From assembly GCA_026391795.1 (NCBI GenBank), contig JAPLDI010000030.1, forward strand, positions 40,293-104,292: a DNA stretch of 64,000 bases, in the 5' to 3' direction. Positions 6,909 through 50,003 of this stretch are shown piece by piece (position 1 is the first letter of the stretch; every line of letters starts with the position of its first letter). The DNA comes from Bacteroidota bacterium. GTDB taxonomy: Bacteria > Bacteroidota > Bacteroidia > Bacteroidales > FEN-979. The notes beneath the pieces were generated by a model. The model searched no databases, was not told where the DNA came from, and saw only the letters and a program-made list of their open reading frames with translations. The position numbers were made by a program, and so were the translations under genes.

Positions 6909-9053
6909 TCAATTAGTATTCTGCTCTTTCATGGAAAGTTGGATCCGGTTCCTTTCCAGGTCAACCTCAACCACTTCAACCATCACTTTCTGGTTGAGTT
7001 TTACCACCTCATTCGGATCTTTGACATACCGCTTCGCCATCTGGCTCACATGCACAAGACCATCCTGGTGGACCCCGATATCGACAAAAGCGCCAAAATT
7101 CGTGATGTTGGTTACAATTCCCGGAAGGCGCATCCCTTTCACAAGATCATGGATGGAATGGATGTTCCGGTCGAATTCAAACATTTCAATCTGTTTTCTT
7201 GGGTCCCGGCCAGGTTTTGAAAGTTCCAGGAGGATATCCTGAATGGTGGGCAGCCCTGTATTTTGATCCACAAATTCATCCGGTTTGAGCTGTTCCCTGA
7301 GTTCTTTCTTTTCAATAAGTTCAGGGATGGAACAGTTCATCCGCGATGCCATTTTACTGACCACAGGATAACTTTCAGGGTGCACGGCACTGAAGTCGAG
7401 CGGGTTTTCTCCATCCCGTATCCGGAGGAACCCGGCCGCCTGTTCGAAGGCTTTCTCCCCGAAACGTGTGACCTTCTTCAGCTCTTCCCTTGAACGGAAA
7501 GCACCTTTTTTATTCCGGTGCTCAATGATGTTTTTTGCCAGCTGGGGTCCAACACCCGATACATAGGTAAGGAGCTCTTCGCTGGCGGTATTGACCTCCA
7601 CACCAACGGAATTGACACAACTGACAACCGTATCTTCCAGGCTGTGGTGAAGGGCTGTCTGGTTGACATCGTGCTGGTACTGCCCTACCCCGATCGATTT
7701 CGGGTCGATCTTCACCAATTCAGCCAGGGGGTCCATCAACCTCCTTCCGATAGAGACAGCTCCCCTGACGGTGATATCGTAATCGGGAAATTCTTTTCTC
7801 GCAACGGCCGATGCGGAGTAAACCGATGCGCCGCTCTCATTCACCATGATGGCGATCAGGTCGCCGGTAAACGGAATCGAGCGGATGAGGCGTTCGGTTT
7901 CCCTGCCGGCAGTTCCATTGCCTATGGCAATGGCTTCAACCTTGTAGGCATTGACAAGACTCTTTAATTTATGGATGGATTCTTTTACTTCTCCCTGCGG
8001 AGGATGGGGATAGATGGTTTCATTGTGAACCAGTTTCCCTTGTTTATCCAGGAGAACGATCTTGCATCCTGTACGGAAACCCGGGTCTATCGCCAGGACA
8101 TTTTTTTGTCCCATCGGCGGGGCAAGCAGCAACTGCCTGAGATTCTCGGCAAAAACCTGAATGGCATCGGCATCGGCCCGTTCTTTTGCCAATTGCCGCA
8201 TCTCTGTTTCCATGGCCGGGAATAAGAGCCTTTTGCAGGCGTCCTTCAGGGTTCGTCTTACCAGATCCGACGAAGAATTGGTACCATGGATGAAGATTTT
8301 TTCCAGGATCTCCATGGCTTTTATTTCCTCCACCTCCACAGAGACTTTGAGGAAAGATTCGCTTTCACCACGGAACATCGCGAGAACCCGGTGGGAAGGT
8401 GATCTCGAAAGCAGTTCACGGAGATCAAAATAGTTCCTGTAGTTTGCGCCATCCTGTTCCTTTCCTTTTGCTACCCTGGAACAGATCATGCCTTCGCGCT
8501 GAAACAACTGACGGATCCGTTTACGTGCATAGATGTGCTCGTTGATCCATTCCGCAATGATATCGCAGGCACCATCCAGCGCCTCTTCCACGTAATTGAC
8601 GCCTTTTTCGGGATTGATGAACGAGCGTGCACGCGATTCCAGGTCGTCGTACTTCTGCGAGAGTATGATTTTGGCAAGACCTTCCAGTCCTTTCTCTTTT
8701 GCTATACTGGCGCGGGTTTTCCGTTTCGGTTTAAAGGGGAGGTAGATGTCTTCAAGCTCCGTCAGGGTAGTTGCGGCATAGACGGCCTTTTCAAGTTCTT
8801 CAGTCAGTTTCTCCTGCTCGGTCAGTGAACGGATGATGGTCTCCCGCCTCGCATCCAGTTCCTTGAGCTGGTTTAACCGGTCGCGTATCCGGGCGATGAC
8901 AACTTCATCCATGCTGCCTGTCATCTCCTTCCGGTAACGGGCAATGAAAGGGATGGTAGCACCACCCTCCAACAGGTTAATCGTATTCCGGACGTAGGAT
9001 GCGGCGATATTCAGCTCAAGGGCGATGGCCGCAGAATATTTTTCATTTGTCAT
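6909..9053 (-). CDS. tex: Tex family RNA-binding protein
   Basis: 714 residues, normal length. Order of domains: Tex N-terminal helical region (1-190), YqgF-like RNase H fold beginning 'NVLAIDPGFRTGCKIVLLD' (about 320), helix-hairpin-helix region 'YVSGVGPQLAKNIIEHR' (about 490-560), and a C-terminal S1 RNA-binding domain 'GMRLPGIVTNITNFGAFVDIG' (640-710). Tex proteins bind nucleic acid and are linked to transcription elongation and RNA turnover; the precise role in Bacteroidota is not known. Its ATG overlaps the end of the upstream secreted-protein gene by 4 bases, implying translational coupling, which is odd for a housekeeping gene behind adhesin genes. Confidence 0.95.
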   Translation of the reverse strand: MTNEKYSAAIALELNIAASYVRNTINLLEGGATIPFIARYRKEMTGSMDEVVIARIRDRLNQLKELDARRETIIRSLTEQEKLTEELEKAVYAATTLTELEDIYLPFKPKRKTRASIAKEKGLEGLAKIILSQKYDDLESRARSFINPEKGVNYVEEALDGACDIIAEWINEHIYARKRIRQLFQREGMICSRVAKGKEQDGANYRNYFDLRELLSRSPSHRVLAMFRGESESFLKVSVEVEEIKAMEILEKIFIHGTNSSSDLVRRTLKDACKRLLFPAMETEMRQLAKERADADAIQVFAENLRQLLLAPPMGQKNVLAIDPGFRTGCKIVLLDKQGKLVHNETIYPHPPQGEVKESIHKLKSLVNAYKVEAIAIGNGTAGRETERLIRSIPFTGDLIAIMVNESGASVYSASAVARKEFPDYDITVRGAVSIGRRLMDPLAELVKIDPKSIGVGQYQHDVNQTALHHSLEDTVVSCVNSVGVEVNTASEELLTYVSGVGPQLAKNIIEHRNKKGAFRSREELKKVTRFGEKAFEQAAGFLRIRDGENPLDFSAVHPESYPVVSKMASRMNCSIPELIEKKELREQLKPDEFVDQNTGLPTIQDILLELSKPGRDPRKQIEMFEFDRNIHSIHDLVKGMRLPGIVTNITNFGAFVDIGVHQDGLVHVSQMAKRYVKDPNEVVKLNQKVMVEVVEVDLERNRIQLSMKEQNTN

Positions 9054-38643: not shown

Positions 38644-41382
38644 ATGCGGCATCTCAAACTGACCGTTATCATTCTGATCGTTGGTTTCCTGGTCTTCGGG
38701 TTGGGATACCTCGCCTGGATCCTCTACCAGAAACTACCAGGGCAAAACGAATCACCGCTGAAAGCCATCTCGGAAAATACCGCCCTGATCATTCAGCTGA
38801 ACCGCCCTTCCGATCTCTCCCAGGATCTTATCAGCCAGAACCTTCTCTGGAAAGAGCTGACAGTGATCCCTTACTTCTCCGCTATTAAAGGTGATTTCCG
38901 GAGCATCGATTCACTGCTCAAAACCAACACAGAACTGCTTCAGATAACAAAAAAATATCCGCTCTACCTTGCCATGACCATGGTGACCCGTTCGTCTTAC
39001 GGGTTCCTGTTCCTGAGCACCATTCCGGAGAAGAACGGAGAAGAGCTGATCACAGGTTTCCTGGAAGAAAATTTCAAGGAGAGGATCAGCATCATGAAAA
39101 ACCAGTACGGATCAGCAAACCTGGTCAGGGTGACCCTGAAAGGCACAAGGGAACCTTTTTATTTCGCGGTCAGGAAGGGGGTTTTCATGGGAAGCAGCCA
39201 TCCCGAACTGGTTACCAAGGCCATCGATCAGCTGTACCTGAACATCCCGTCCCTGACAGGGTCGGGCTTTCAGAAAGTGGAAACAACCACCGGCAAGAAA
39301 GTGGATGCAAACATCTATGTCAACTACCGGTTGATCCGACCCTTTATCTCAAACCTCCTTCAGCCCGATCAGCAGAATGAAACCTATAAGGTCAGCCGCT
39401 TTGCCGACTGGAGCGGACTGGATGTCATCCTGAAAAAAGACGAGATGCTCATCAACGGGTATACCACCATTGCGGATACCGGCTCCCAGTACCTTGGAAT
39501 ATTTTCAGGACAGGTTCCCCAGAAAACCGGAATGATGAAGATCCTGCCGGATAATATTTCACGTTTCATCTGGATGGGCTATAACTCAACCGATGTTTTT
39601 TACCGGAACTTTCAATCCTTTGCCTCAAAAAATGGAGGATATCTTGATACCTACCCGGAATTTCAGGATTTTGAAACCCGCGAGCAGGTAGTAGTCAAAG
39701 ATTATTTTCTCCCCTGGATGGGATCGGAACTCTGCATGGCAAGAGCGCTTAACAATGCAGAAACCATGCGCGAAGATCCGTATGCTATTGCAAAAGTCAA
39801 TGACCGGCAGCTTGCCGACAGTCTGCTTGCCGAACTTTCATCGCTCTTCCCGAAAAAGAAAGATTCTCTCTCGTACCATTCTGTATCCATTCGCTTCATG
39901 CCTTTCCATGAGCTTTTGCCCGGCCTCTTCGGGATGGTCTTTACCGATGTCCGTGCCGCCTGCTATGCCTTCCTTGGAGATTATGTGGTCTTCGCGAATG
40001 ACGTGCTTGCCATGAAGGATTTCATTGATCATTATACCTACGGGAAGGTCCTGGAGAAAGACCGTACATTTCAGGCTGTCAGTGAGAATATTTCCGACCA
40101 GACCAATGTGTTCTACTACTTCAATACCATACGGTCGCAGCCTGCGCTCAAGACGACATTCAGCGACGAACTGATCGCCCAGATCGACCCGGTTTTCGAC
40201 TCTCTTAAAAAATTCGAATCCATTGCTTTGCAGTTTTCAGCCAAAGGAAACCTGTTTTACACAAGTCTTTTTATCCACTATAACCCGGCAACCGATAACC
40301 AGGGGCCGCTCGTATGGCAAACAGTACTGGATTCGGCTGCTTCCGGCATGCCTCAATTTGTAAAATTAAGTAAACAGGGTTCAACCGCGGTTCTTGCCTC
40401 TGACCTTGCGAATCATCTCTACCTGATCGACTCTGCCGGCAACATCACCTGGAAAGTCAAACTTACCGGCAAGATACTCGGCCTTCCCAGGGAAATCTAC
40501 CCGAAGGGCTCAGACAGTTCCTGTTTCCTTTTTAATACCGAGAGCCAGATATACCTGGTTCGTTCGTCAGGGAAATACGTCGATGGATTCCCTGTAAAAC
40601 TTCCTGCACGGGCCACAGCCGGACTTACTCTCTGCAACCTCGCTACAAACAAAGAACCCAGGATATTCATTCCCCTGTCCGACAACAAAGTCCATGCATT
40701 TGAAACGGATGGCACACTCGTCGGAAACTGGCCTGGCCCTGGCATGAGCGAAGGAATCGGGCAACCGGTACAGGTAATTCAAAGCGGGAAAAAGGAATAC
40801 ATTTTTATCCGGGGAAAAAACGGACACCTTTTGGTTACCGACCAGAAAGGAAAGACCCTCATGCGGTCCGGAAAGAACCTGAAAGTTTCGGCCAACAATT
40901 TGTTCTATGTCAACAAGACCAACCGCAAAGGGCTTTTCCTTACCACAGATCCTACAGGCAAGGTTTTGTATTTCCAGGAAAGCGGAAGAACCTCGGAAGT
41001 CACCTTCAACCTTTTCTCGAACAGCCATACCTTCCTGTATGAAGATTTCAACAGCGACGGTTCTGCCGAATTCATTTTCTACGACCACAACCGGATCTAT
41101 TTCTACAACCGTTTTTATAAGCTGACATACAGTTATTCGTTCCGGAGAGACATCTCCATTCCTCCGTTTGTCCTGGAATTGCCAGGAAGTAAAACAAGAA
41201 TTGCCGCAGTTTCCGGCGCTGCAAATGAGATATACCTGTTCGGAATCAACGGACTGCTGGAAAACCTTCCGGGAATCAGGGGAAATACGGAATTTTCAAT
41301 CGGGAAACTGGGAACCGATCCGGGGCTTAAACTGGTGATCGGTGCAGGAAAAAACCTGAAGTGCTACAGGTTACCGGAGTAA
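38644..41382 (+). CDS. Large membrane-anchored DUF3352-type protein with C-terminal propeller-like region
   Basis: 912 residues. One N-terminal transmembrane segment (about 5-28) anchors it; the rest should face the periplasm. Residues 35-530 resemble DUF3352 proteins of Bacteroidota ('ISENTALIIQLNRPSDLSQDL' after the anchor). Residues 550-912 contain short repeated strands such as 'LYLIDSAGNITWKVKL', 'IYLVRSSGKYVDGFPVKL', 'VHAFETDGTLVGNWPG', 'LLVTDQKGKTLMRSG', the pattern of a PQQ-like propeller. No function is known; a role in envelope assembly or ligand sensing would be a guess. Its last 12 bases overlap the convergent glucosaminidase gene. Confidence 0.8.
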   Translation: MRHLKLTVIILIVGFLVFGLGYLAWILYQKLPGQNESPLKAISENTALIIQLNRPSDLSQDLISQNLLWKELTVIPYFSAIKGDFRSIDSLLKTNTELLQITKKYPLYLAMTMVTRSSYGFLFLSTIPEKNGEELITGFLEENFKERISIMKNQYGSANLVRVTLKGTREPFYFAVRKGVFMGSSHPELVTKAIDQLYLNIPSLTGSGFQKVETTTGKKVDANIYVNYRLIRPFISNLLQPDQQNETYKVSRFADWSGLDVILKKDEMLINGYTTIADTGSQYLGIFSGQVPQKTGMMKILPDNISRFIWMGYNSTDVFYRNFQSFASKNGGYLDTYPEFQDFETREQVVVKDYFLPWMGSELCMARALNNAETMREDPYAIAKVNDRQLADSLLAELSSLFPKKKDSLSYHSVSIRFMPFHELLPGLFGMVFTDVRAACYAFLGDYVVFANDVLAMKDFIDHYTYGKVLEKDRTFQAVSENISDQTNVFYYFNTIRSQPALKTTFSDELIAQIDPVFDSLKKFESIALQFSAKGNLFYTSLFIHYNPATDNQGPLVWQTVLDSAASGMPQFVKLSKQGSTAVLASDLANHLYLIDSAGNITWKVKLTGKILGLPREIYPKGSDSSCFLFNTESQIYLVRSSGKYVDGFPVKLPARATAGLTLCNLATNKEPRIFIPLSDNKVHAFETDGTLVGNWPGPGMSEGIGQPVQVIQSGKKEYIFIRGKNGHLLVTDQKGKTLMRSGKNLKVSANNLFYVNKTNRKGLFLTTDPTGKVLYFQESGRTSEVTFNLFSNSHTFLYEDFNSDGSAEFIFYDHNRIYFYNRFYKLTYSYSFRRDISIPPFVLELPGSKTRIAAVSGAANEIYLFGINGLLENLPGIRGNTEFSIGKLGTDPGLKLVIGAGKNLKCYRLPE

Positions 41383-42285
41383 TATCTTCTGACCCTGTTT
41401 TATCGGGCGCCCCGGTTTCAGCTTGTTGATCTTATACAACTGACTTAGCTGGATTCCATAATTTTGCGACAGGATGTACATGGTTTCCCCCGGCTTAACT
41501 ACATGCATGGCAAGGACTCCGGCTTTCTTTTTGGGTTCGAGATAAACCATCTGGCCCGGAACCAGCGGGGCATCTTTTTGCATTTCGTTGAACTTCCGGA
41601 TCTTCCGTTCCGATACCTTGAATGCTTTTGAAACATTTTTAATGTTATCATTCTTCCGAAGGATGATAAACTGAAGACCATTGTTCAGGTAAACCATTCT
41701 TTTCCCTGGACCTTCCGCAAAAAGATCATATTTAGCGGCTGTAACCTTCCGCACAGTTGAATCTCCTGAGGGAACAACAGAGTCATTGAAAGCTATCGAA
41801 AAATCAGCCACATCGTTCCGGTATAACTGGTAATCCTCGATGGTCTTGATCAGGTGATCGGCATACTGCGGGTTGGTGGCATACCCACATGTCTTTAATC
41901 CGTTTGCCCAACCTTTGTAATCGGTGATCTCAAGACTGAACAAAGGTTTGTACCGGTCGCGCTGGGAAAGGAAATAGGAATGATCCCTGAATGACTCTTC
42001 AGGGTTACTGTATTTGCGAAAACATTCATTCTTCGTTTCGTCATCCTGGATATACGATTTACCGGTCCATTCTTTATGGCATTTGATTCCGAAATGATTG
42101 TTGGCTTCAGTGGCCAGGCGGCTTCTGCCTGCATCGGACTCATAAATTCCCTGGGCCAGTGTTATACTTGCAGGAATCCGGTATTGCATCATCTCCTTGA
42201 TCGCTATGTCCCGGTACTTCTCTATATAAGCCTTGACAGCTTCTTCATACCAAGAAAACGAACTACCCCATGGAACCCATGCCAA
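41371..42285 (-). CDS. Glucosaminidase-LysM cell-wall hydrolase, apparently without signal peptide
   Basis: 304 residues from a TTG at 42285, with a stop codon immediately upstream. Residues 15-160 are a FlgJ/Mannosyl-glycoprotein glucosaminidase domain ('IPASITLAQGIYESDAGRSRLATEANNHFGIKC' with catalytic Glu, 'FRKYSNPEESFRDHSYFL', 'WANGLKTCGYATNPQYA'). LysM domains near 210-255 and 258-304 ('HVVKPGETMYILSQNYGIQLSQLYKIN') bind peptidoglycan. These enzymes normally begin with a signal peptide, but here the first residues ('AWVPWGSSFSWYEE') are not one, and a short-repeat tract abuts the start. Export may be lost, or a start or frameshift misread. Third gene after murL and murD2. Confidence 0.85.
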   Translation of the reverse strand: MAWVPWGSSFSWYEEAVKAYIEKYRDIAIKEMMQYRIPASITLAQGIYESDAGRSRLATEANNHFGIKCHKEWTGKSYIQDDETKNECFRKYSNPEESFRDHSYFLSQRDRYKPLFSLEITDYKGWANGLKTCGYATNPQYADHLIKTIEDYQLYRNDVADFSIAFNDSVVPSGDSTVRKVTAAKYDLFAEGPGKRMVYLNNGLQFIILRKNDNIKNVSKAFKVSERKIRKFNEMQKDAPLVPGQMVYLEPKKKAGVLAMHVVKPGETMYILSQNYGIQLSQLYKINKLKPGRPIKQGQKILLR

Positions 42286-42286
42286 C

Positions 42287-42327
42287 TACCTCCTGATTCT
42301 GACCTCCGACTTCTGACCTCTGACCTC
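42287..42327. repeat. GAGGTCAGAAGTCGG-type short repeats between murD and glucosaminidase genes
   Basis: On the minus strand, units GAGGTCA, GAGGTCA, GAAGTCG, GAGGTCA, GAATCAG run from the murD stop to the presumed glucosaminidase start. Same family as tracts at 45694, 51478, 57355 and 63045. Confidence 0.7.
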
Positions 42328-43708
42328 ATTGAAGTTCTTTCTTAACCAGCTCCTTGTACCTTTTTCCCCTCATTTCAAAATTCTGGAATTCATCATAACT
42401 GGCAGCTGCCGGCGACAGCAGGCAGACGGAACCGGGTTTCGTTACATTGCTGACGATCTCCGGGAATTCATCAAACTTCGACAATAAGAAAAGGGTTTGC
42501 TCCGGTTTTTTGATCTCCCTGATCTCATGAAGGATCCGGCGGCCGGCCTCACCGGTAAAGATCAGGTTCCGGATGCCCGATCCCGAGAGAAATAAAGCAA
42601 ATCCGGAATAATCGATCCCCCTGTCAAATCCTCCGAGGATAAGCGTATCCACATTGCCGAGTGCCTTAACGGCTTCCATGCAGGCTTCAGGGATTGTTGC
42701 AATGGAGTCATTATAATAATGTACGCCGTTGTACTCCCCGACATATTCAAGGCGGTGTTCAAGGCCCCGGAACGAAGAGATCCCTTCCGCGATGATTGCA
42801 GGATCTGTGCCCAGTTGCCTGCAGACAGCTGCGGCCGCCATGATATTCAACCGGTTGTGCTCGCCCTTCAGCTTGATTTTCCGCCTGAGGTCGAAGAGCA
42901 CTTCCTCCGGGCCGCCGGCAGAGAAAAGAATCTTTTCGTCACGGATATAAAAACCTTCGGAAGACCCGTCGTGTAAGGAAAATGGATGCAGAATTCCCTT
43001 GAGCACCAGGGAGGGGATCCGCTGTAGGATCCGCTGGTCATCCCTGTTAAAAAAGAAAGAATCACCGCTCTCCTGGTATTTTGCGATGTTCATCTTTGCA
43101 AGCTGGTAATCCAGGAAGGAACGGTAGGCATCCAGATGCTCCTCATAAAGGTTCAGCAACACCGAGATGTGCGGGGAACGCCGGATGTATTCGAGCTGGT
43201 GCGACGACAGTTCGAACACAAGGGTTGTGTCGGGATTGATCTCATCCACCACATCAAAGGCTGGCCGGCCGATATTTCCCATGAGAACCGAATCTTTTTC
43301 CGCCAGTCTCAGGATATGATGAATAAGCGTGGCAGTGGTGCTCTTTCCTTTGGTCCCGGTGACGCCCGTAACCTGACCCGAATAGCGCCGTAGAAACAGA
43401 TCCGTTTGCGATGTTATCGCTGCAGGATCTATACCTTCAGCGATATCTTTCAGGGAGATACCGGGTGATTTCAGGATCCGTGAGAAGGTATTCAATCCAT
43501 CGAGGGATTCCTCTCCCAGCCGGAAATTCACAAACCGGTCGTCCTTTACCAGGTCGTATTCCCTTACCGATCCATTGGCATCGGCAATGGTAAGAGGAAG
43601 TTCCGGCAAAACGCGCCGGATGAGCCGGTAACTCGATTGCCCTTCCCTCCCGAAGCCAAGAAGAAGCACTGTTTGATTTTCCAGTTCTGTCCTGATCAGA
43701 TCAAGCAT
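42326..43708 (-). CDS. murD2: MurD2-type UDP-MurNAc-L-Ala--L-Glu ligase
   Basis: 460 residues with the Mur ligase plan: N-terminal Rossmann domain ('VLLLGFGREGQSSY'), ATP-binding domain with P-loop GTKGKST (118-124, where ordinary MurD has Asn instead of Lys120) and 'FELSSHQLEY', and a C-terminal domain ending 'LLSPAAASYDEFQNFEMRGKRYKEL'. The C-terminal substrate segment reads 'LGGFDRGIDY', where E. coli MurD has GGDGK with the D-Glu-binding Lys, and 'NDSIAT' replaces NDSKAT. Together with the overlapping murL gene (8-base overlap) this argues that it adds L-Glu, not D-Glu. If the sequence differences are neutral, it would be an ordinary MurD. Confidence 0.85.
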   Translation of the reverse strand: MLDLIRTELENQTVLLLGFGREGQSSYRLIRRVLPELPLTIADANGSVREYDLVKDDRFVNFRLGEESLDGLNTFSRILKSPGISLKDIAEGIDPAAITSQTDLFLRRYSGQVTGVTGTKGKSTTATLIHHILRLAEKDSVLMGNIGRPAFDVVDEINPDTTLVFELSSHQLEYIRRSPHISVLLNLYEEHLDAYRSFLDYQLAKMNIAKYQESGDSFFFNRDDQRILQRIPSLVLKGILHPFSLHDGSSEGFYIRDEKILFSAGGPEEVLFDLRRKIKLKGEHNRLNIMAAAAVCRQLGTDPAIIAEGISSFRGLEHRLEYVGEYNGVHYYNDSIATIPEACMEAVKALGNVDTLILGGFDRGIDYSGFALFLSGSGIRNLIFTGEAGRRILHEIREIKKPEQTLFLLSKFDEFPEIVSNVTKPGSVCLLSPAAASYDEFQNFEMRGKRYKELVKKELQ

Positions 43709-45080
43709 GGATTTTCGATCTTAACAGCGCCTCGAATTCAGCAGGCAGGAAATGATTTTCATTGAAGGCGTGAAGGAGGGCGCGGGTATCAAAATTCCTG
43801 TATCGCGAATACATCTCAGAATCGCGGTAAAGCCTGAGGATTTCCGGCAAACTGTTTTCAGGGATCAATTCCAGCGTCATGATAAGCGCCGCATTGACCT
43901 CGTCGATTGTTCCGATACAGTCAAAAGGCTTGGTGACAGTCATGCCCGAAAGCTGCCGGAGCATCGGCCAAAGTTCCGCGTCGGTCAGAAGATTCTTTCC
44001 AAAAACCGACGCCAGCTTTTCCTGGGAAATAAAAGGCGAAAGAATGACATACGTAAACAGGCATTTTGCACAATTCCCGCACCAGGAATCGGTCTTGCTG
44101 CCGACATTGCAACTTTTAAATACATCGAAATATTTCGGGAACCCTGAAAACAGACTGGCGATCTGCAATTCATTCAGGGGCCTGAGGAAGCTGAAATATT
44201 CGATATCGGGAGTGATGAAATGGCTCACGTAATGCCGCATGTCTTCTTCAAATTCCACCGATTTTGAATACTGGTGGTTGATCTCGGATCCTTTCACAGT
44301 CGACTCGTTGGCACTCGATTCGTTGGACAGTGCAATGTATTTTTTTCCTGACAATCCTGCAGCAAGCACCGACACGAAGGCAAGCAAAGCGGAAAAAGGC
44401 GTGTGACCGTTCAGGAACCCTTTTGCATTCAGTTCAAGCAGAACGGGATCAATGGTCCGGTGAACCTCAAAGATCGAATCGTAGTAAAGCCCCATCTTCA
44501 TCACTGTTCCCTTGCTTGCATCCCTCGGATTGACAATCAGCGGGATATTGCCGTTGTCGTTACCCAGGATCTCCAGGGTAACCACCGAATCCTTTCCGCC
44601 GCCAACGGGAACGATGGCCATATTTCCGAGTTGAAGAGAAAAGGGTTGGAATGTTCGCCCGGGTTCACATTCGATCCTGACAAAATCTTCCGGCTTCACT
44701 GTAATCGAGTTCAGGTAAAGGAATTCACCTAACCCCTTATTGTATAGTTTCTGCCACCAGTCAATCTGCTCCGGTGTGAGCGAACGGCCCCGCACGATAA
44801 GCTTCTGCGGACAGGCCGCTTTCCAGTAGCTGATGGATTCAACCATGCCGATCTGGAACAGGATGTTTTCAAGAAATGCATCATTGATGTTCCCCGGAAT
44901 AAAAAAATCCTTCGCAGGGATCATCATGGTGGGATGAAATACATATTTATCCGACAGGGAAAAATGAAATTGTACCCTCAGTCCTTTATCTGAATACTGA
45001 TAATCAAAACCATCGTAAGCCAAAAAAGGATATTCTGCCCTCAGTCTGGTAAATTTTTCGCGGTTGTTGTTTTTTGGCAT
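43701..45080 (-). CDS. murL: MurL: UDP-MurNAc-L-Ala-L-Glu epimerase
   Basis: 459 residues, the length of MurL described in Xanthomonas. Residues 158-165 read PVGGGKDS, an ATP-pyrophosphatase-type loop; 'ALSNESSANEST' follows near residue 250 and a Cys triad C334-C337-C340 ('WCGNCAKC') lies in the C-terminal third, all features of the MurL family. MurL epimerises the terminal L-Glu of UDP-MurNAc-L-Ala-L-Glu to D-Glu with ATP hydrolysis, replacing glutamate racemase (MurI) plus classical MurD. Its stop codon overlaps the murD2 start by 8 bases, so the two are translationally coupled. Divergent from yqgE with closely packed promoters. Confidence 0.88.
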   Translation of the reverse strand: MPKNNNREKFTRLRAEYPFLAYDGFDYQYSDKGLRVQFHFSLSDKYVFHPTMMIPAKDFFIPGNINDAFLENILFQIGMVESISYWKAACPQKLIVRGRSLTPEQIDWWQKLYNKGLGEFLYLNSITVKPEDFVRIECEPGRTFQPFSLQLGNMAIVPVGGGKDSVVTLEILGNDNGNIPLIVNPRDASKGTVMKMGLYYDSIFEVHRTIDPVLLELNAKGFLNGHTPFSALLAFVSVLAAGLSGKKYIALSNESSANESTVKGSEINHQYSKSVEFEEDMRHYVSHFITPDIEYFSFLRPLNELQIASLFSGFPKYFDVFKSCNVGSKTDSWCGNCAKCLFTYVILSPFISQEKLASVFGKNLLTDAELWPMLRQLSGMTVTKPFDCIGTIDEVNAALIMTLELIPENSLPEILRLYRDSEMYSRYRNFDTRALLHAFNENHFLPAEFEALLRSKIHA

Positions 45081-45098: not shown

Positions 45099-45111
45099 CT
45101 TTGTGTGTGTG

Positions 45112-45119
45112 CAAAAGTA
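45112..45119 (-). promoter_or_regulatory. -7 promoter element for murL-murD2
   Basis: CAAAAGTA on the plus strand reads TACTTTTG on the minus strand, an exact -7 match 32 bases before the murL ATG. No -33 TTG is seen. Both predicted transcription starts, for yqgE and murL, fall near 45105, so the two polymerase footprints overlap. Confidence 0.5.
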
Positions 45120-45136
45120 ATAATTTACGACGAATA

Positions 45137-45697
45137 ATGGAAAAGCCCATTATAAAACCACAACAAGGGATGATCCTGATTTCCGAGCCGTCCTTGCGGG
45201 ATTTTTACTTCCGGCAATCGATCGTACTGCTGGCTGAGCATAACAAAGAGGGCTCTTTCGGGATCATCATCAACAAGCCCATTGAAGCCCAGCTGAACGA
45301 CATCCTGAAGGACTTTCCCGATTTCGATGCCCCGGTTTTCCTTGGAGGACCTGTGAAGACCGACAGCATTTTCTTCCTTCATACCAAGCCCGACATCGAC
45401 GACAGTATTGAGATCATGAATGGATTGTACTGGGGAGGGGATATTGAAACCATCCGGGAGATGATCAACCTGAAGAAAATCACTGAAAATGATATCCGTT
45501 TTTATGTAGGTTACTCCGGGTGGGACCCTGCACAGCTTGATCGTGAGATCAGCGAAAAATCCTGGATCCTTTCCCATACCACCGTTGAAGAGGTCATCAA
45601 CCCCAACCCCCAGAACCTCTGGCGGACACATCTCAGGAATATGGGAAAAGATTATGCATTGTGGGCCAACTTCCCCACCGACCCGTCATTTAACTGA
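45137..45697 (+). CDS. yqgE: YqgE/AlgH family protein
   Basis: 186 residues from ATG 45137 ('MEKPIIKPQQGMILISEPSL'). Family signatures: 'GMILISEPSLRDFYFRQSIVLLAEHN' at the start, 'GSFGIIINKPI', 'VFLGGPVKTDSIFFLHT', and 'RFYVGYSGWDPAQLDREI'. The function of YqgE/AlgH is not well defined; in Pseudomonas AlgH was linked to alginate regulation, and YqgE commonly neighbours yqgF elsewhere, but not here. Divergent from murL with shared control region. Confidence 0.93.
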   Translation: MEKPIIKPQQGMILISEPSLRDFYFRQSIVLLAEHNKEGSFGIIINKPIEAQLNDILKDFPDFDAPVFLGGPVKTDSIFFLHTKPDIDDSIEIMNGLYWGGDIETIREMINLKKITENDIRFYVGYSGWDPAQLDREISEKSWILSHTTVEEVINPNPQNLWRTHLRNMGKDYALWANFPTDPSFN

Positions 45698-46138: not shown

Positions 46139-48817
46139 ATGAAATCACCTGAACCCCCTCTGAAAGAAGCCATCAATTATTATGGCCACAAACCCGTTGA
46201 AAGCATAGAAAACCGGGAAGCCAAGCGTTCGCCCGGGGCCCGTGCAAACAAAGCCCGGGAGCTTTACTTCGAAGCAAAGTCATCCGCCTCCGTTGAGTTT
46301 CCTTACTGGTATACCCGCCGTTGGGAAGAACTGGAGGGAGAGATCCCCATCGTCCGCCGCGGGGAGGCCATGAAAGCCGCATTCGAACACCTTACACCGG
46401 TGATCTATCCGGGCGAATTGCTTGTGATGGGAAAAGCTGCTTACCTCCGAGGTTCCTATCCTATGCCCTGGCTCTCCGAAGCCTTCTTCATGGCCGCGGA
46501 AGACAAACTTTACAAAGAGGCAATGGAATCGGGAAAACTTACAGCCGACAGTTTCACAACCGTTGGAAAAGGCGGCGGTAATGTTACCCAGAGCAGCGGG
46601 AATGTGATCTCCATTGCCGGGAAATTCGGACTGCGGAAAGAAGAATTGCCGATCCTGATGGAGGTGGCAAAAAAATGGAAAGATAAATCGGTTGACGATA
46701 TCGGTCATAAATACGAACAGCTGGTTCCGGGATACAAGGAGAAAGAGGCCCTCATGCGTTCGGTGATCTGCATGTTCGATTCGGGATATACCCTGCCGCA
46801 GGGACGCGAAGTCGTCAATTTTTATTATCCGCTTCAATATGGGATCGACGGCATCATCCGGATCTGTGAAGAGGGGATAAATGAAACAGCAGGTTCACCC
46901 GGCATGGACCGGATCTATTTCTACCACGCGGTGATCCTGATGCTGAAAGGATTGCAAAGCTGGATCCGCAATCATGCCGAAGAAGCAAGGTTCCTTTCCT
47001 CCCTGGAGAAAGATGAAAAGCAGAAACAGGAATTCGATGAGATCGCCGGAAGGCTGGAATGGCTCTCCACGAGCCGTCCGCGTAATTTCCATGATGCCCT
47101 TCAGATGATCTGGATCTTTCATACTGCCGTCCTGAATGAAGATGCCATCTCGGGGCTCTCCCCCGGCCGGGTGGGTCAGGTTCTCTATCCATACTGGAAA
47201 AGAGACATTGAAAACGGCACCATCGACCGCGAGAAAACACTTGAGCTTCTGGAATGCATGCGGATCAAGTTTACCGAGATCGATTGTTTTGCCTCGATGG
47301 GAGTCGTGGGGGGTGTGCTTTCCGGTAACACCTTCAATAATCTCTGTATCGGAGGATTGAAAAAAGACGGCACCCAGGCTTCGAATGAACTCGAAATGCT
47401 GATCATGGAGGCCGGGATCACCTGCGATACGCCTCAGCCAACACTTTCCCTTCTCTATGACGAAAAACTGCCGGAAGAATTCCTGATGAAAGGGATCGAA
47501 TGTACCAAAATCGGTACCGGTTACCCGGCATGGGTCAACAACCAGGTTGCCATGGAATTCCTTCTGAGCAACTACGGACATGAAGGCATGCAGATGGAAG
47601 AAGCCCGCGCCTGGTCGATTGGCGGATGCCTCGAAACCTCACCCGGAAGCTGGATGCCGCTCGAACTCGACGGAGAAACCTGCTGGATCCCCGGCGGATC
47701 GGCCCCGGCAACAAGCGTTGGTGTTCACTTCCTTTCCCTTCCGAAACTGCTCGAAGTCACCCTGTTCGACGGTTTAGACATGCGTAGCGGGGAACGGATA
47801 TTCCCTTCCCACGGATATGCGCTGAATTCCTATGATGAACTCTGGAGTGCTTTCAAAACCTATTTTCACAGGGCCGTCCATGTTCTGACCCTGACGAACA
47901 ACATCCAGCATGATGCCTGGCGAAAGATCTCCCCTTCGCTGGTCAACTCCATGCTCAAGCCCGATTGCCTTAAAAACGGGAAAGATATCGGACAGATGGG
48001 AAGCCGTTATAACACAACCTTCAATGTTGAATCCTGCGGAACGGCTAACCTGGTAAATTCACTGGCTTCGCTAAGGAAGAATGTTTACGATGATAAAAAA
48101 TATTCCCTGGCTGATTTCCGGAATGCGATCCTTGCAAATTTTGGATTCAAAACCGCCCAGGAAACCGGTTCTTATTCGCTGATCGACCAGGTTGCTACAG
48201 AAGATTATCATAACTGGAAGCACATTCATAAAGCCGGTCTCGATGCACCCAAATTCGGCAACGATGATGCCTATGTTGACCGGATCATGGCCGACTGGGA
48301 AAACTGGTTCTGCACGATGACGCACGAGTTCCGGTCACTCTATGATCAGCCGCTCTATGCCTGCCAGATCTCTGTCTCTACGCATGGCCCGATGGGAGCT
48401 GTGACCATGGCTTCCCCTGACGGACGGCTCAGCGGTACAACTTTCTCTGACGGATCTGTTTCGGCATATCCGGGCACGGACAGGAACGGCCCCTACGCGC
48501 TGTTTGAATCGGCTTCCTGCTGGGACCATTCCCTTTCACAGAACTCCCAGATGAATATGAAAATCCACCCCTCCGTTGTAAAAGGCAGGGAAGGTTCACG
48601 GAAGTTTCTTGAACTGATCCGTGCATATATGCGGAAAGGAGGATTTCATGTCCAGTTCAATATTGTTGATTCCCGAATGCTGAAAGAGGCGCAGGCAGAA
48701 CCGGATAAATTCCGGAGTCTCCTTGTCAGGGTTGCAGGTTTCACCCAATACTGGGTGGAACTCGGCAAACAGATCCAGGATGAAGTGATCTCACGGACAG
48801 AATATGAAGAATTGTAA
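46139..48817 (+). CDS. hpdB: 4-Hydroxyphenylacetate decarboxylase, glycyl-radical large subunit
   Basis: 892 residues, pyruvate-formate-lyase-like barrel. The radical site is Gly867 in 'VRVAGFTQYW'; the thiyl Cys497 and Glu499 lie in 'SIGGCLETS'. Taking remembered active-site residues of Clostridium scatologenes HpdB (Ser344, Phe405, Cys503, Glu505, His536, Glu637, Gly873), every one is present here at exactly six positions less: Ser338, Phe399, Cys497, Glu499, His530, Glu631, Gly867. That constant offset, plus the next small gene resembling HpdC, supports decarboxylation of 4-hydroxyphenylacetate to p-cresol. Alternative: a related arylacetate decarboxylase. The activator hpdA and small subunit hpdC follow; a strong promoter with an inverted repeat precedes. 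Confidence 0.85.
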   Translation: MKSPEPPLKEAINYYGHKPVESIENREAKRSPGARANKARELYFEAKSSASVEFPYWYTRRWEELEGEIPIVRRGEAMKAAFEHLTPVIYPGELLVMGKAAYLRGSYPMPWLSEAFFMAAEDKLYKEAMESGKLTADSFTTVGKGGGNVTQSSGNVISIAGKFGLRKEELPILMEVAKKWKDKSVDDIGHKYEQLVPGYKEKEALMRSVICMFDSGYTLPQGREVVNFYYPLQYGIDGIIRICEEGINETAGSPGMDRIYFYHAVILMLKGLQSWIRNHAEEARFLSSLEKDEKQKQEFDEIAGRLEWLSTSRPRNFHDALQMIWIFHTAVLNEDAISGLSPGRVGQVLYPYWKRDIENGTIDREKTLELLECMRIKFTEIDCFASMGVVGGVLSGNTFNNLCIGGLKKDGTQASNELEMLIMEAGITCDTPQPTLSLLYDEKLPEEFLMKGIECTKIGTGYPAWVNNQVAMEFLLSNYGHEGMQMEEARAWSIGGCLETSPGSWMPLELDGETCWIPGGSAPATSVGVHFLSLPKLLEVTLFDGLDMRSGERIFPSHGYALNSYDELWSAFKTYFHRAVHVLTLTNNIQHDAWRKISPSLVNSMLKPDCLKNGKDIGQMGSRYNTTFNVESCGTANLVNSLASLRKNVYDDKKYSLADFRNAILANFGFKTAQETGSYSLIDQVATEDYHNWKHIHKAGLDAPKFGNDDAYVDRIMADWENWFCTMTHEFRSLYDQPLYACQISVSTHGPMGAVTMASPDGRLSGTTFSDGSVSAYPGTDRNGPYALFESASCWDHSLSQNSQMNMKIHPSVVKGREGSRKFLELIRAYMRKGGFHVQFNIVDSRMLKEAQAEPDKFRSLLVRVAGFTQYWVELGKQIQDEVISRTEYEEL

Positions 48818-48831
48818 CATCCCCGGAAACC

Positions 48832-49080
48832 ATGGAAAACAATTGTAAAGATTGTAAGTATTACCTTCCTGTAGATGTTTTTAGAGGAATGTGTAAGCGC
48901 GACAAGACCAACATCGGACCGGACCACGAGATATGCGCTAAATTCGACCGGTTGCCAAAATGCAAGTTTTGCCAGAAATACAAGGCTGAAAAAGAATTCC
49001 TTGGAAGCTGCCTTGGAAACACCATCGCTTACCCCGATATGAATGCATCCAAATGTGCGGGATTTGAATGGGTCCGGTAA
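48832..49080 (+). CDS. hpdC: 4-Hydroxyphenylacetate decarboxylase small (Fe-S) subunit
   Basis: 82 residues with eight Cys at 5, 8, 21, 35, 44, 47, 60 and 75, enough for two [4Fe-4S] clusters, in the order known for HpdC: CxxC...GMCKRDK...C, then 'LPKCKFCQKY', 'GSCLG' and 'SKCAGFE'. The clostridial HpdC has a His as one ligand of the first cluster (HSDC, from memory); here that position is Cys5 (CKDC), so the first cluster would be all-Cys. The subunit stabilises HpdB and may tune the radical. It is translated 14 bases after hpdB and overlaps hpdA by 13 bases. Confidence 0.85.
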   Translation: MENNCKDCKYYLPVDVFRGMCKRDKTNIGPDHEICAKFDRLPKCKFCQKYKAEKEFLGSCLGNTIAYPDMNASKCAGFEWVR

Positions 49081-50003
49081 AGCTAACCGAAGCTATCCTC
49101 TTCGACATCCAGGGTTTTTCAGTTCATGACGGACCCGGCTGCAGGACATTACTATTCCTGAAAGGATGTTCCCTCCAATGCAGCTGGTGCTCAAACCCCG
49201 AAGGTCTGCTCCCCTTTCCCGAACCTCTGTACAATTCTTCCAAATGCATCTTTGACAACCTGTGTACTGGCGCCTGCCCAAGGGATGCCATTACCCCCGG
49301 AGATCAGACCCTCTGCTTTGATCGTGAAAAATGCCATGACTGCACTACCTATGAATGTTCAAAAGCATGTTGTACCGGAGCATTAAAAATCGGGGGATAC
49401 CGGATTTCGGAAGAGGAATTAATGAGGAAGATCCGGCGCGACCGCCAGTATTGGGGCAGCAACGGGGGCATCACACTGACCGGAGGAGAACCCTTTCTTC
49501 AGCCATCCGTCGTCAGCTCATTCTTAAAAAAATGTCACCTTGCCTTCATTCATACTGCTGTTGAGACCTGCGGAAATATTTCCTGGAAAAATATCGAACC
49601 GTCACTCGCGTATCTTGACTGGATATTTTTTGATCTCAAACAGATGGATGATGTCCGGCATATTGCCATGACCGGGGCAAGTAATAAACTGATCCTGGAG
49701 AATGCCCGGAAACTTGCAACGGCATTTCCCGGCAGGCTGGTTTTCAGGATGCCTGTTATTCCGGGATTCAATGATGACGGGGAACACATCGTTCAGCTCT
49801 GCGCATTCCTGAATTCCATAAAAAAAGATGAGATCAACATCCTCCCTGTTCATCACCTTGGAAGGGAGAAGTACAACCTGATTGGCAGATCGTATTACAC
49901 CGACAATTTCACACCCCCTGAAAAAGAATCGCTTGCACACATTCAGTCTGTATTCACCAGTCACGGGATCAGATGCTATGTCGGAACGGATACCCCGTTT
50001 TAA
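49068..50003 (+). CDS. hpdA: Glycyl-radical-activating enzyme for HpdB
   Basis: 311 residues. Radical SAM motif C34-x3-C38-x2-C41 ('GCSLQCSWC'), followed by an inserted ferredoxin-like part with CIFDNLCTGAC and 'CHDCTTYECSKACC', the two extra cluster sites typical of arylacetate- and glycerol-type activators; 'NGGITLTGGEPFLQ' and 'VIPGFNDD' are further family motifs. It generates the Gly867 radical in HpdB. The start at 49068 overlaps the end of hpdC by 13 bases, indicating coupled translation. Followed by a terminator-like hairpin for the opposite strand. Confidence 0.92.
   Translation: MGPVKLTEAILFDIQGFSVHDGPGCRTLLFLKGCSLQCSWCSNPEGLLPFPEPLYNSSKCIFDNLCTGACPRDAITPGDQTLCFDREKCHDCTTYECSKACCTGALKIGGYRISEEELMRKIRRDRQYWGSNGGITLTGGEPFLQPSVVSSFLKKCHLAFIHTAVETCGNISWKNIEPSLAYLDWIFFDLKQMDDVRHIAMTGASNKLILENARKLATAFPGRLVFRMPVIPGFNDDGEHIVQLCAFLNSIKKDEINILPVHHLGREKYNLIGRSYYTDNFTPPEKESLAHIQSVFTSHGIRCYVGTDTPF

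Follow-up and report, generated by a model that had tools for sequence, protein, structure and literature searches.

A probable MurD2-MurL route to cell-wall D-glutamate in Bacteroidales and a retained C-terminal domain of classical MurD

We analysed a stretch of 64,000 nucleotides (hereafter the window; contig JAPLDI010000030.1 of assembly GCA_026391795.1, positions 40,293 to 104,292) from an uncultured Bacteroidota bacterium of the order Bacteroidales, in which two overlapping genes, murL and murD2, very probably form a working module that replaces glutamate racemase (MurI). MurD2 would attach L-glutamate (L-Glu) to the cell-wall precursor, MurL would adenylate the alpha-carboxyl of the new residue (ATP to AMP), making its alpha-hydrogen more acidic, and the L-Glu would be flipped to D-glutamate (D-Glu) on the precursor. 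Production of D-Glu on the precursor only would explain why MurI is absent and why, of the D-Glu-specific classical MurD of the division and cell-wall (dcw) cluster, the N-terminal and ATPase domains are gone and a conserved C-terminal domain is left, probably in a non-ligase role. The original prediction, made from the letters of the DNA, had stated that MurD2 plus MurL is a described alternative to glutamate racemase in Xanthomonas, and the literature agrees: the pathway is known from X. oryzae (XOO_1320/XOO_1319; Feng et al. 2017, reviewed in PMC8788868). The organisms listed in that review are Gamma- and Alphaproteobacteria and actinobacteria only, and a search that mostly could not reach subscription journals returned nothing on a MurL from Bacteroidota. 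The pathway was known before, while its wide use in Bacteroidales is absent from the literature that could be searched.

The murL-murD2 gene pair

The features of the pair, all on the minus strand of the window, are as follows.

42326-43708, minus: murD2, 460 amino acids (aa), matching TIGR01087 and grouping in a tree with X. sacchari MurD2
43701-45080, minus: murL, 459 aa, matching NF041275, with 33% identity over 321 aa to the annotated X. sacchari MurL
43701-43708, minus: overlap of the two reading frames, 8 nucleotides, murL first
44586-44609, minus: PVGGGKDS, MurL residues 158-165, PP-loop (SGGxDS-type) ATP-binding motif, from conservation
44061-44111, minus: C324-x9-C334-x2-C337-x2-C340 of MurL, QueC-like zinc-type Cys cluster, from conservation and hhalign
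43337-43357, minus: GTKGKST, Mur-ligase P-loop in its MurD2 form, identical in X. sacchari MurD2
43139-43141, minus: E190 of MurD2 (E. coli MurD D182, X. oryzae MurD2 E197), L-Glu specificity residue
42701-42703, minus: I336 of MurD2 (E. coli MurD K319)
42620-42622, minus: R363 of MurD2 (E. coli MurD K348, X. oryzae MurD2 R358), L-Glu specificity residue

The window ligase exceeds the cut-off of the murD model TIGR01087 (299.7 bits over 211.95), and it is the residues that determine the choice of enantiomer that point to MurD2. Mutagenesis has shown that E197 and R358 of X. oryzae MurD2 (D182 and K348 in E. coli) set L-Glu specificity, and that the exchange K319T makes E. coli MurD accept L-Glu (PMC8788868). 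At these three positions the window ligase carries E, I and R in place of the D-Glu-type D182, K319 and K348, as does X. sacchari MurD2. Across the 116 Bacteroidales ligases associated with MurL that we aligned, E stands in 115/116, I in 115/115 and R in 115/115, while 39 classical Bacteroidales MurD have D, K and K with no exception. In our tree, 16 MurD2 sequences including that of X. sacchari stand on one side of a branch and the classical MurD on the other (support 100/100, 100% of bootstrap trees); X. sacchari MurD2 is a long branch, and its position inside the MurD2 group is unsure. The specificity residues, the GTKGKST loop and the tree grouping together support the assignment of the window ligase to MurD2.

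The partner protein is matched by NF041275, the NCBIfam model of Xanthomonadales MurL, over positions 24-444 of 447 (E 1.7e-73), and by X. sacchari MurL in BLASTP (E 2e-54), the latter carrying the GGGKDS loop and a WCGxCxKC motif like the window protein. P158 and G160-S165 of the loop are invariant in 47 homologues, and so are C324, C334, C337 and C340. The original prediction had recognised murL by its length, its PVGGGKDS loop and a triad of cysteines, beside a ligase with GTKGKST and GGFDRG loops that it overlaps by 8 bases; length, loops and overlap are all borne out, and the cysteines are indeed conserved, except that there are four of them and not three. No Pfam model recognises MurL, a sequence search of the Protein Data Bank with it gave no match, and no MurL was found in the viral contigs searched.

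The two genes are linked well beyond the window. The alignment with Xanthomonas that had been proposed gave agreement in gene order, overlap and motifs, the X. sacchari operon (taken from a plasmid collection) having murL followed by murD2 with frames overlapping by 20 nucleotides. We scanned for MurL loci with one genome per species, which gave at least 573 loci, and kept 80, nearly all named Bacteroidales or Bacteroidota; in 73 of these 80 other, independently fetched loci murD2 comes after murL in the same orientation. A further form of linkage occurs in several lineages, at seven loci (L129, L131, L158 and L173 from the locus scan; L182, L202 and L203 from the order sample described below), some from rumen metagenome-assembled genomes (MAGs) of the RUG series, where MurL (N-terminal) and MurD2 (C-terminal) are fused in one frame of 885-996 aa. 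Because of this linkage and these fusions, the pairing is not attributable to chance. The overlap of the two frames makes translational coupling of murL and murD2 likely. Promoter and terminator scans around the pair gave signals not above those of shuffled sequences.

Reviews of 2018 and 2021 describe MurL as a protein without a known domain and with an open mechanism, using one ATP and forming AMP, for which an acyl-adenylate was proposed. Our AlphaFold2 model, built with the 47 homologues, has a predicted local distance difference score (pLDDT) of 92.7 and a predicted template modelling score (pTM) of 0.92. When the list returned by Foldseek was realigned with VIA-align, QatC came first (Z 18.0, root-mean-square deviation 3.7 A, 318 residues aligned, model residues 16-400), followed by QueC (Z 13.1 and 12.6) and a chain of the Cap9-CdnD complex (12.3), well above further PP-loop ATPases such as argininosuccinate synthase and NAD synthetase (Z 7-9). 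The QueC/QatC-aligned segment begins at about residue 152, just ahead of the PVGGGKDS loop. QueC carries an SGGxDS loop and a Cx8CxxCxxC cluster (PMC13329287), and hhalign sets the MurL cysteine stretch on residues 183-206 of E. coli QueC with E 0.0041 and a probability of only 8.2. Because of the predicted fold, the conserved GGxDS-type loop and the cysteine cluster, we consider that MurL most likely belongs with the PP-loop ATPases of QueC/QatC type and adenylates Glu at its alpha-carboxyl; the adenylate mechanism was proposed by earlier authors, and the predicted fold would fit the ATP-to-AMP chemistry. MurL shares with QueC and QatC (7-cyano-7-deazaguanine synthase and an anti-phage deazaguanylation enzyme, PF06508) the fold as predicted, the loop, the cysteine cluster (here C-x9-C-x2-C-x2-C) and ATP-dependent chemistry on a carboxylate. 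It differs in lying outside the PF06508 profile, which at best gives E 0.018 in 3/17 members, in its putative substrate, a uridine diphosphate (UDP)-muramyl dipeptide, and in its product, which is an epimer instead of an amide or nitrile. MurL is absent from both the 2026 survey of the QueC family (PMC13329287) and the paper on the structure of QatC.

Sources of D-glutamate and the MurD remnant

The source genome (3.76 Mb, 50 contigs, 95.6% complete) contains no PF01177 protein and no TIGR00067 match, in searches that were positive for MurI in control genomes. It has no D-amino-acid transaminase either, the sole aminotransferase-IV protein being the branched-chain enzyme ilvE, and no second full MurD. 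This is what had been foreseen for a genome using the pair, and a functional murI together with a second classical murD, named beforehand as the finding that would speak against it, was searched for without success, the dcw murD being a C-terminal fragment only. Peptidoglycan synthesis looks intact, since MurC, MurE, MurF and an Mpl/MurC-like ligase are all there at full length.

The same exclusion holds among relatives. In 41 related genomes, MurI was above cut-off in 10, none of them with MurL, and MurL was present in 28, none of them with MurI. Our order sample comprises 149 Bacteroidales genomes, each at least 95% complete, of which 45 have MurL, 97 have MurI, 7 have neither and none has both (Fisher p 4e-31). 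D-amino-acid transaminase was above cut-off in no MurL genome. PF01177 proteins that do occur in some MurL genomes were rejected as MurI: the one that was read is of a 228-aa type, and the glutamate-racemase model is below cut-off or without a match. A phylum-wide search with NF041275 gave the source genome as the sole convincing match among 345 genomes; two others, with short matches (E about 1e-4) in frames of 784-803 aa, were set aside. Three genomes stand apart: G434 and G508 (family f120) have a full classical MurD, neither MurI nor MurL, and only weak aminotransferase-IV matches, and G383 (98% complete, from the order sample) lacks both MurI and MurL as well as any MurD that scores better than MurC-like proteins, and is perhaps a member of the Bacteroidales without ordinary peptidoglycan.

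Part of the classical murD remains in the source genome.

L012, positions 7677-8225 (C33 of the source genome), between mraY and ftsW: stand-alone MurD C-terminal domain, 182 aa

The dcw order is mraZ-mraW-ftsL-pbp-murE-mraY-[182 aa]-ftsW-murG-murC-ftsQ-ftsA-ftsZ, genes without a profile match being named from position and sequence. The 182-aa frame at the place of murD corresponds to TIGR01087 positions 264-440 (E 4.4e-50), the N-terminal and ATPase domains being gone. An orphan N-terminal half, as expected of a split murD, was sought in the same genome; the other TIGR01087 matches were MurC, MurE, MurF and the Mpl/MurC-like ligase. A C-terminal murD fragment is present in 25/25 family members examined, and across the order the dcw murD is truncated in about half of the MurL genomes, many other MurL-bearing families being affected, and full-length in the others. 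Among MurL-less genomes of the order sample, no truncated dcw murD was seen outside the family of the source genome; inside it, G354 and G365 have the stub without a visible MurL, perhaps through assembly gaps.

Full-length and truncated MurD occur within one family in three cases (f60, f99 and f133), and on a tree of mraY and ftsW the full or truncated state changes 13 times, at least five of these changes being forced by well-supported branches. As regrowth of two domains is implausible, we take the truncations to be repeated losses, which occurred independently at least five times, with the same domain kept each time.

Alternative readings

Several points weigh against reading the pair as a module that replaces MurI. 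The catalytic activities of both enzymes are inferred by homology to assayed enzymes of X. oryzae, Micromonospora and Salinispora, all from outside Bacteroidota, and identity to Xanthomonas MurL is as low as 33%. The NF041275 score of the window MurL (247.6 bits) lies below the curated equivalog cut-off of 700, which rules out that subgroup only, the model being named and scaled for Xanthomonadales. Foldseek itself gave no match to the MurL model below E 0.001, and gene absence is never absolute in an assembly of 50 contigs. The co-occurrence counts are not independent events, since the MurL/MurI label needs only two changes on the mraY and ftsW tree. Finally, a complete classical MurD persists in about half of the MurL genomes, although no source of D-Glu is visible there: G380, G381, G517 and 19 others (e.g. 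L054, L046, L205) show neither MurI nor D-transaminase, and their intact MurD has all catalytic and D-Glu-type residues in 22/22 looked at; a guess would be that D-Glu salvage supplies it. Alternatively, the ligase could be an ordinary D-Glu-using MurD that has drifted, its MurL partner a homologue acting elsewhere, in some other cell-wall or peptide modification, and D-Glu might come from an unrecognised racemase or from outside. The naming of the ligase as murD by TIGR01087 and the PF01177 protein of another type in some MurL genomes of the family (L035) would be in keeping with this. We nevertheless find it improbable, as the source genome is without any PF01177 protein, all known enantiomer-specificity residues are of the MurD2 type and fixed across 115 sequences, the ligase is linked to MurL in the great majority of loci and fused to it in seven, and MurI and MurL are mutually exclusive in the order sample. 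An incomplete or misassembled draft, suggested by the completeness and contig number of the genome, is a still poorer explanation of the missing MurI and full MurD, to which we give hardly any weight: the same pattern recurs in 28/41 relatives and 45/149 genomes of the order, and the stub lies between mraY and ftsW, close behind mraY, with all three on one contig, in 32/32 truncated loci inspected.

The stub might also have no role as a protein, being a decaying pseudogene or a spacer that serves the translational coupling of ftsW. The ftsW gene follows it directly, the Glu- and ATP-site residues of the stub are decaying (K348 is kept in 7/32, N268 in 8/32 and K319 in 17/32), and in some lineages its identity to the stub of the source genome is only 30-37%. 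Yet dN/dS (the ratio of nonsynonymous to synonymous substitution rates) between congeners is 0.057-0.104, like that of MurL and lower than that of MurD2, and support of ftsW translation would not account for such selection at the protein level; the frame is open in 32/32 loci, D62 (E. coli D317), W72, I85, G113 and V140 are invariant in all 32 rows, and the same domain was kept in each independent truncation. We therefore regard a stub without protein function as unlikely. A fold that persists after its active site has decayed suggests binding or scaffolding, and we lean slightly towards the view that in Bacteroidales the C-terminal domain of the classical MurD also serves the dcw cluster in a way that needs no catalysis, for example by binding MraY, FtsW, MurG or MurE. 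MurD2-MurL would have freed MurD from catalysis, after which the other domains would have been deleted many times independently and the stub retained as a separate protein under strong purifying selection. Opposite Met1 of the stub, 38/39 full-length Bacteroidales MurD have a Met as well, and one idea is that full-length murD genes also make a short isoform from an internal start; the sequence upstream of this internal Met is not consistently start-like in the G+C-rich genomes. No papers turned up in a literature search on MurD in truncated form or on its C-terminal domain as a protein of its own.

Genomic setting and significance

The neighbourhood of the pair in the window includes the following genes.

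41371-42285, minus: glucosaminidase-LysM cell-wall hydrolase, directly downstream of murD2
45101-45697, plus: AlgH/YqgE (DUF179), divergent beside murL
46139-50003, plus: 4-hydroxyphenylacetate decarboxylase set

The AlgH/YqgE gene stands divergent next to murL in 69/80 loci, as in the window, and from this near-constant neighbour we infer a single ancestral acquisition of the MurL locus in Bacteroidales, followed by vertical descent. Between this gene and murL the window has a TAnnTTTG-like box (TACTTTTG). The hydrolase is near MurL in 13/80 loci. The decarboxylase set consists of a large subunit of the glycyl radical type (NF033715, 1455.6 bits over 1150), a small Cys-rich open reading frame (48832-49080) and an activase-like protein (49068-50003), and likely means p-cresol production in a member of the Bacteroidales.

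Compared with the MurD2-MurL system of Xanthomonas, the window pair has the same murL-murD2 order and an overlap of the frames, proteins that are both homologous along their full length, the MurD2 specificity residues, the P-loop variant, the Cys cluster and the lack of MurI and D-transaminase. It differs in its phylum, Bacteroidota, in a MurL of 33% identity and in the fused MurL-MurD2 of some Bacteroidales; classical murD is here cut to a retained C-terminal domain. With the classical route of E. coli and most other Bacteroidales it shares the homology of MurD2 to MurD, whereas in that route MurI supplies free D-Glu, which a D-Glu-specific MurD (D182/K319/K348) ligates; these two enzymes are missing here. 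The pair in the window is therefore a known pathway in a new phylum, and the MurD stub and the fusions set the whole configuration apart as a novel form of that pathway.

With at least 573 loci, many of them in rumen, lake and sediment MAGs, the alternative cell-wall route extends to a large part of the Bacteroidales. Inhibitors of glutamate racemase should leave MurL-bearing Bacteroidales untouched, and inhibitors of MurD2 or MurL should not be presumed specific to Xanthomonas and its kin. The QueC/QatC-like fold predicted for MurL, so far a protein without a domain, gives it a testable mechanism, and the MurD stub, repeatedly made and selectively kept, hints at a role of MurD besides ligation.
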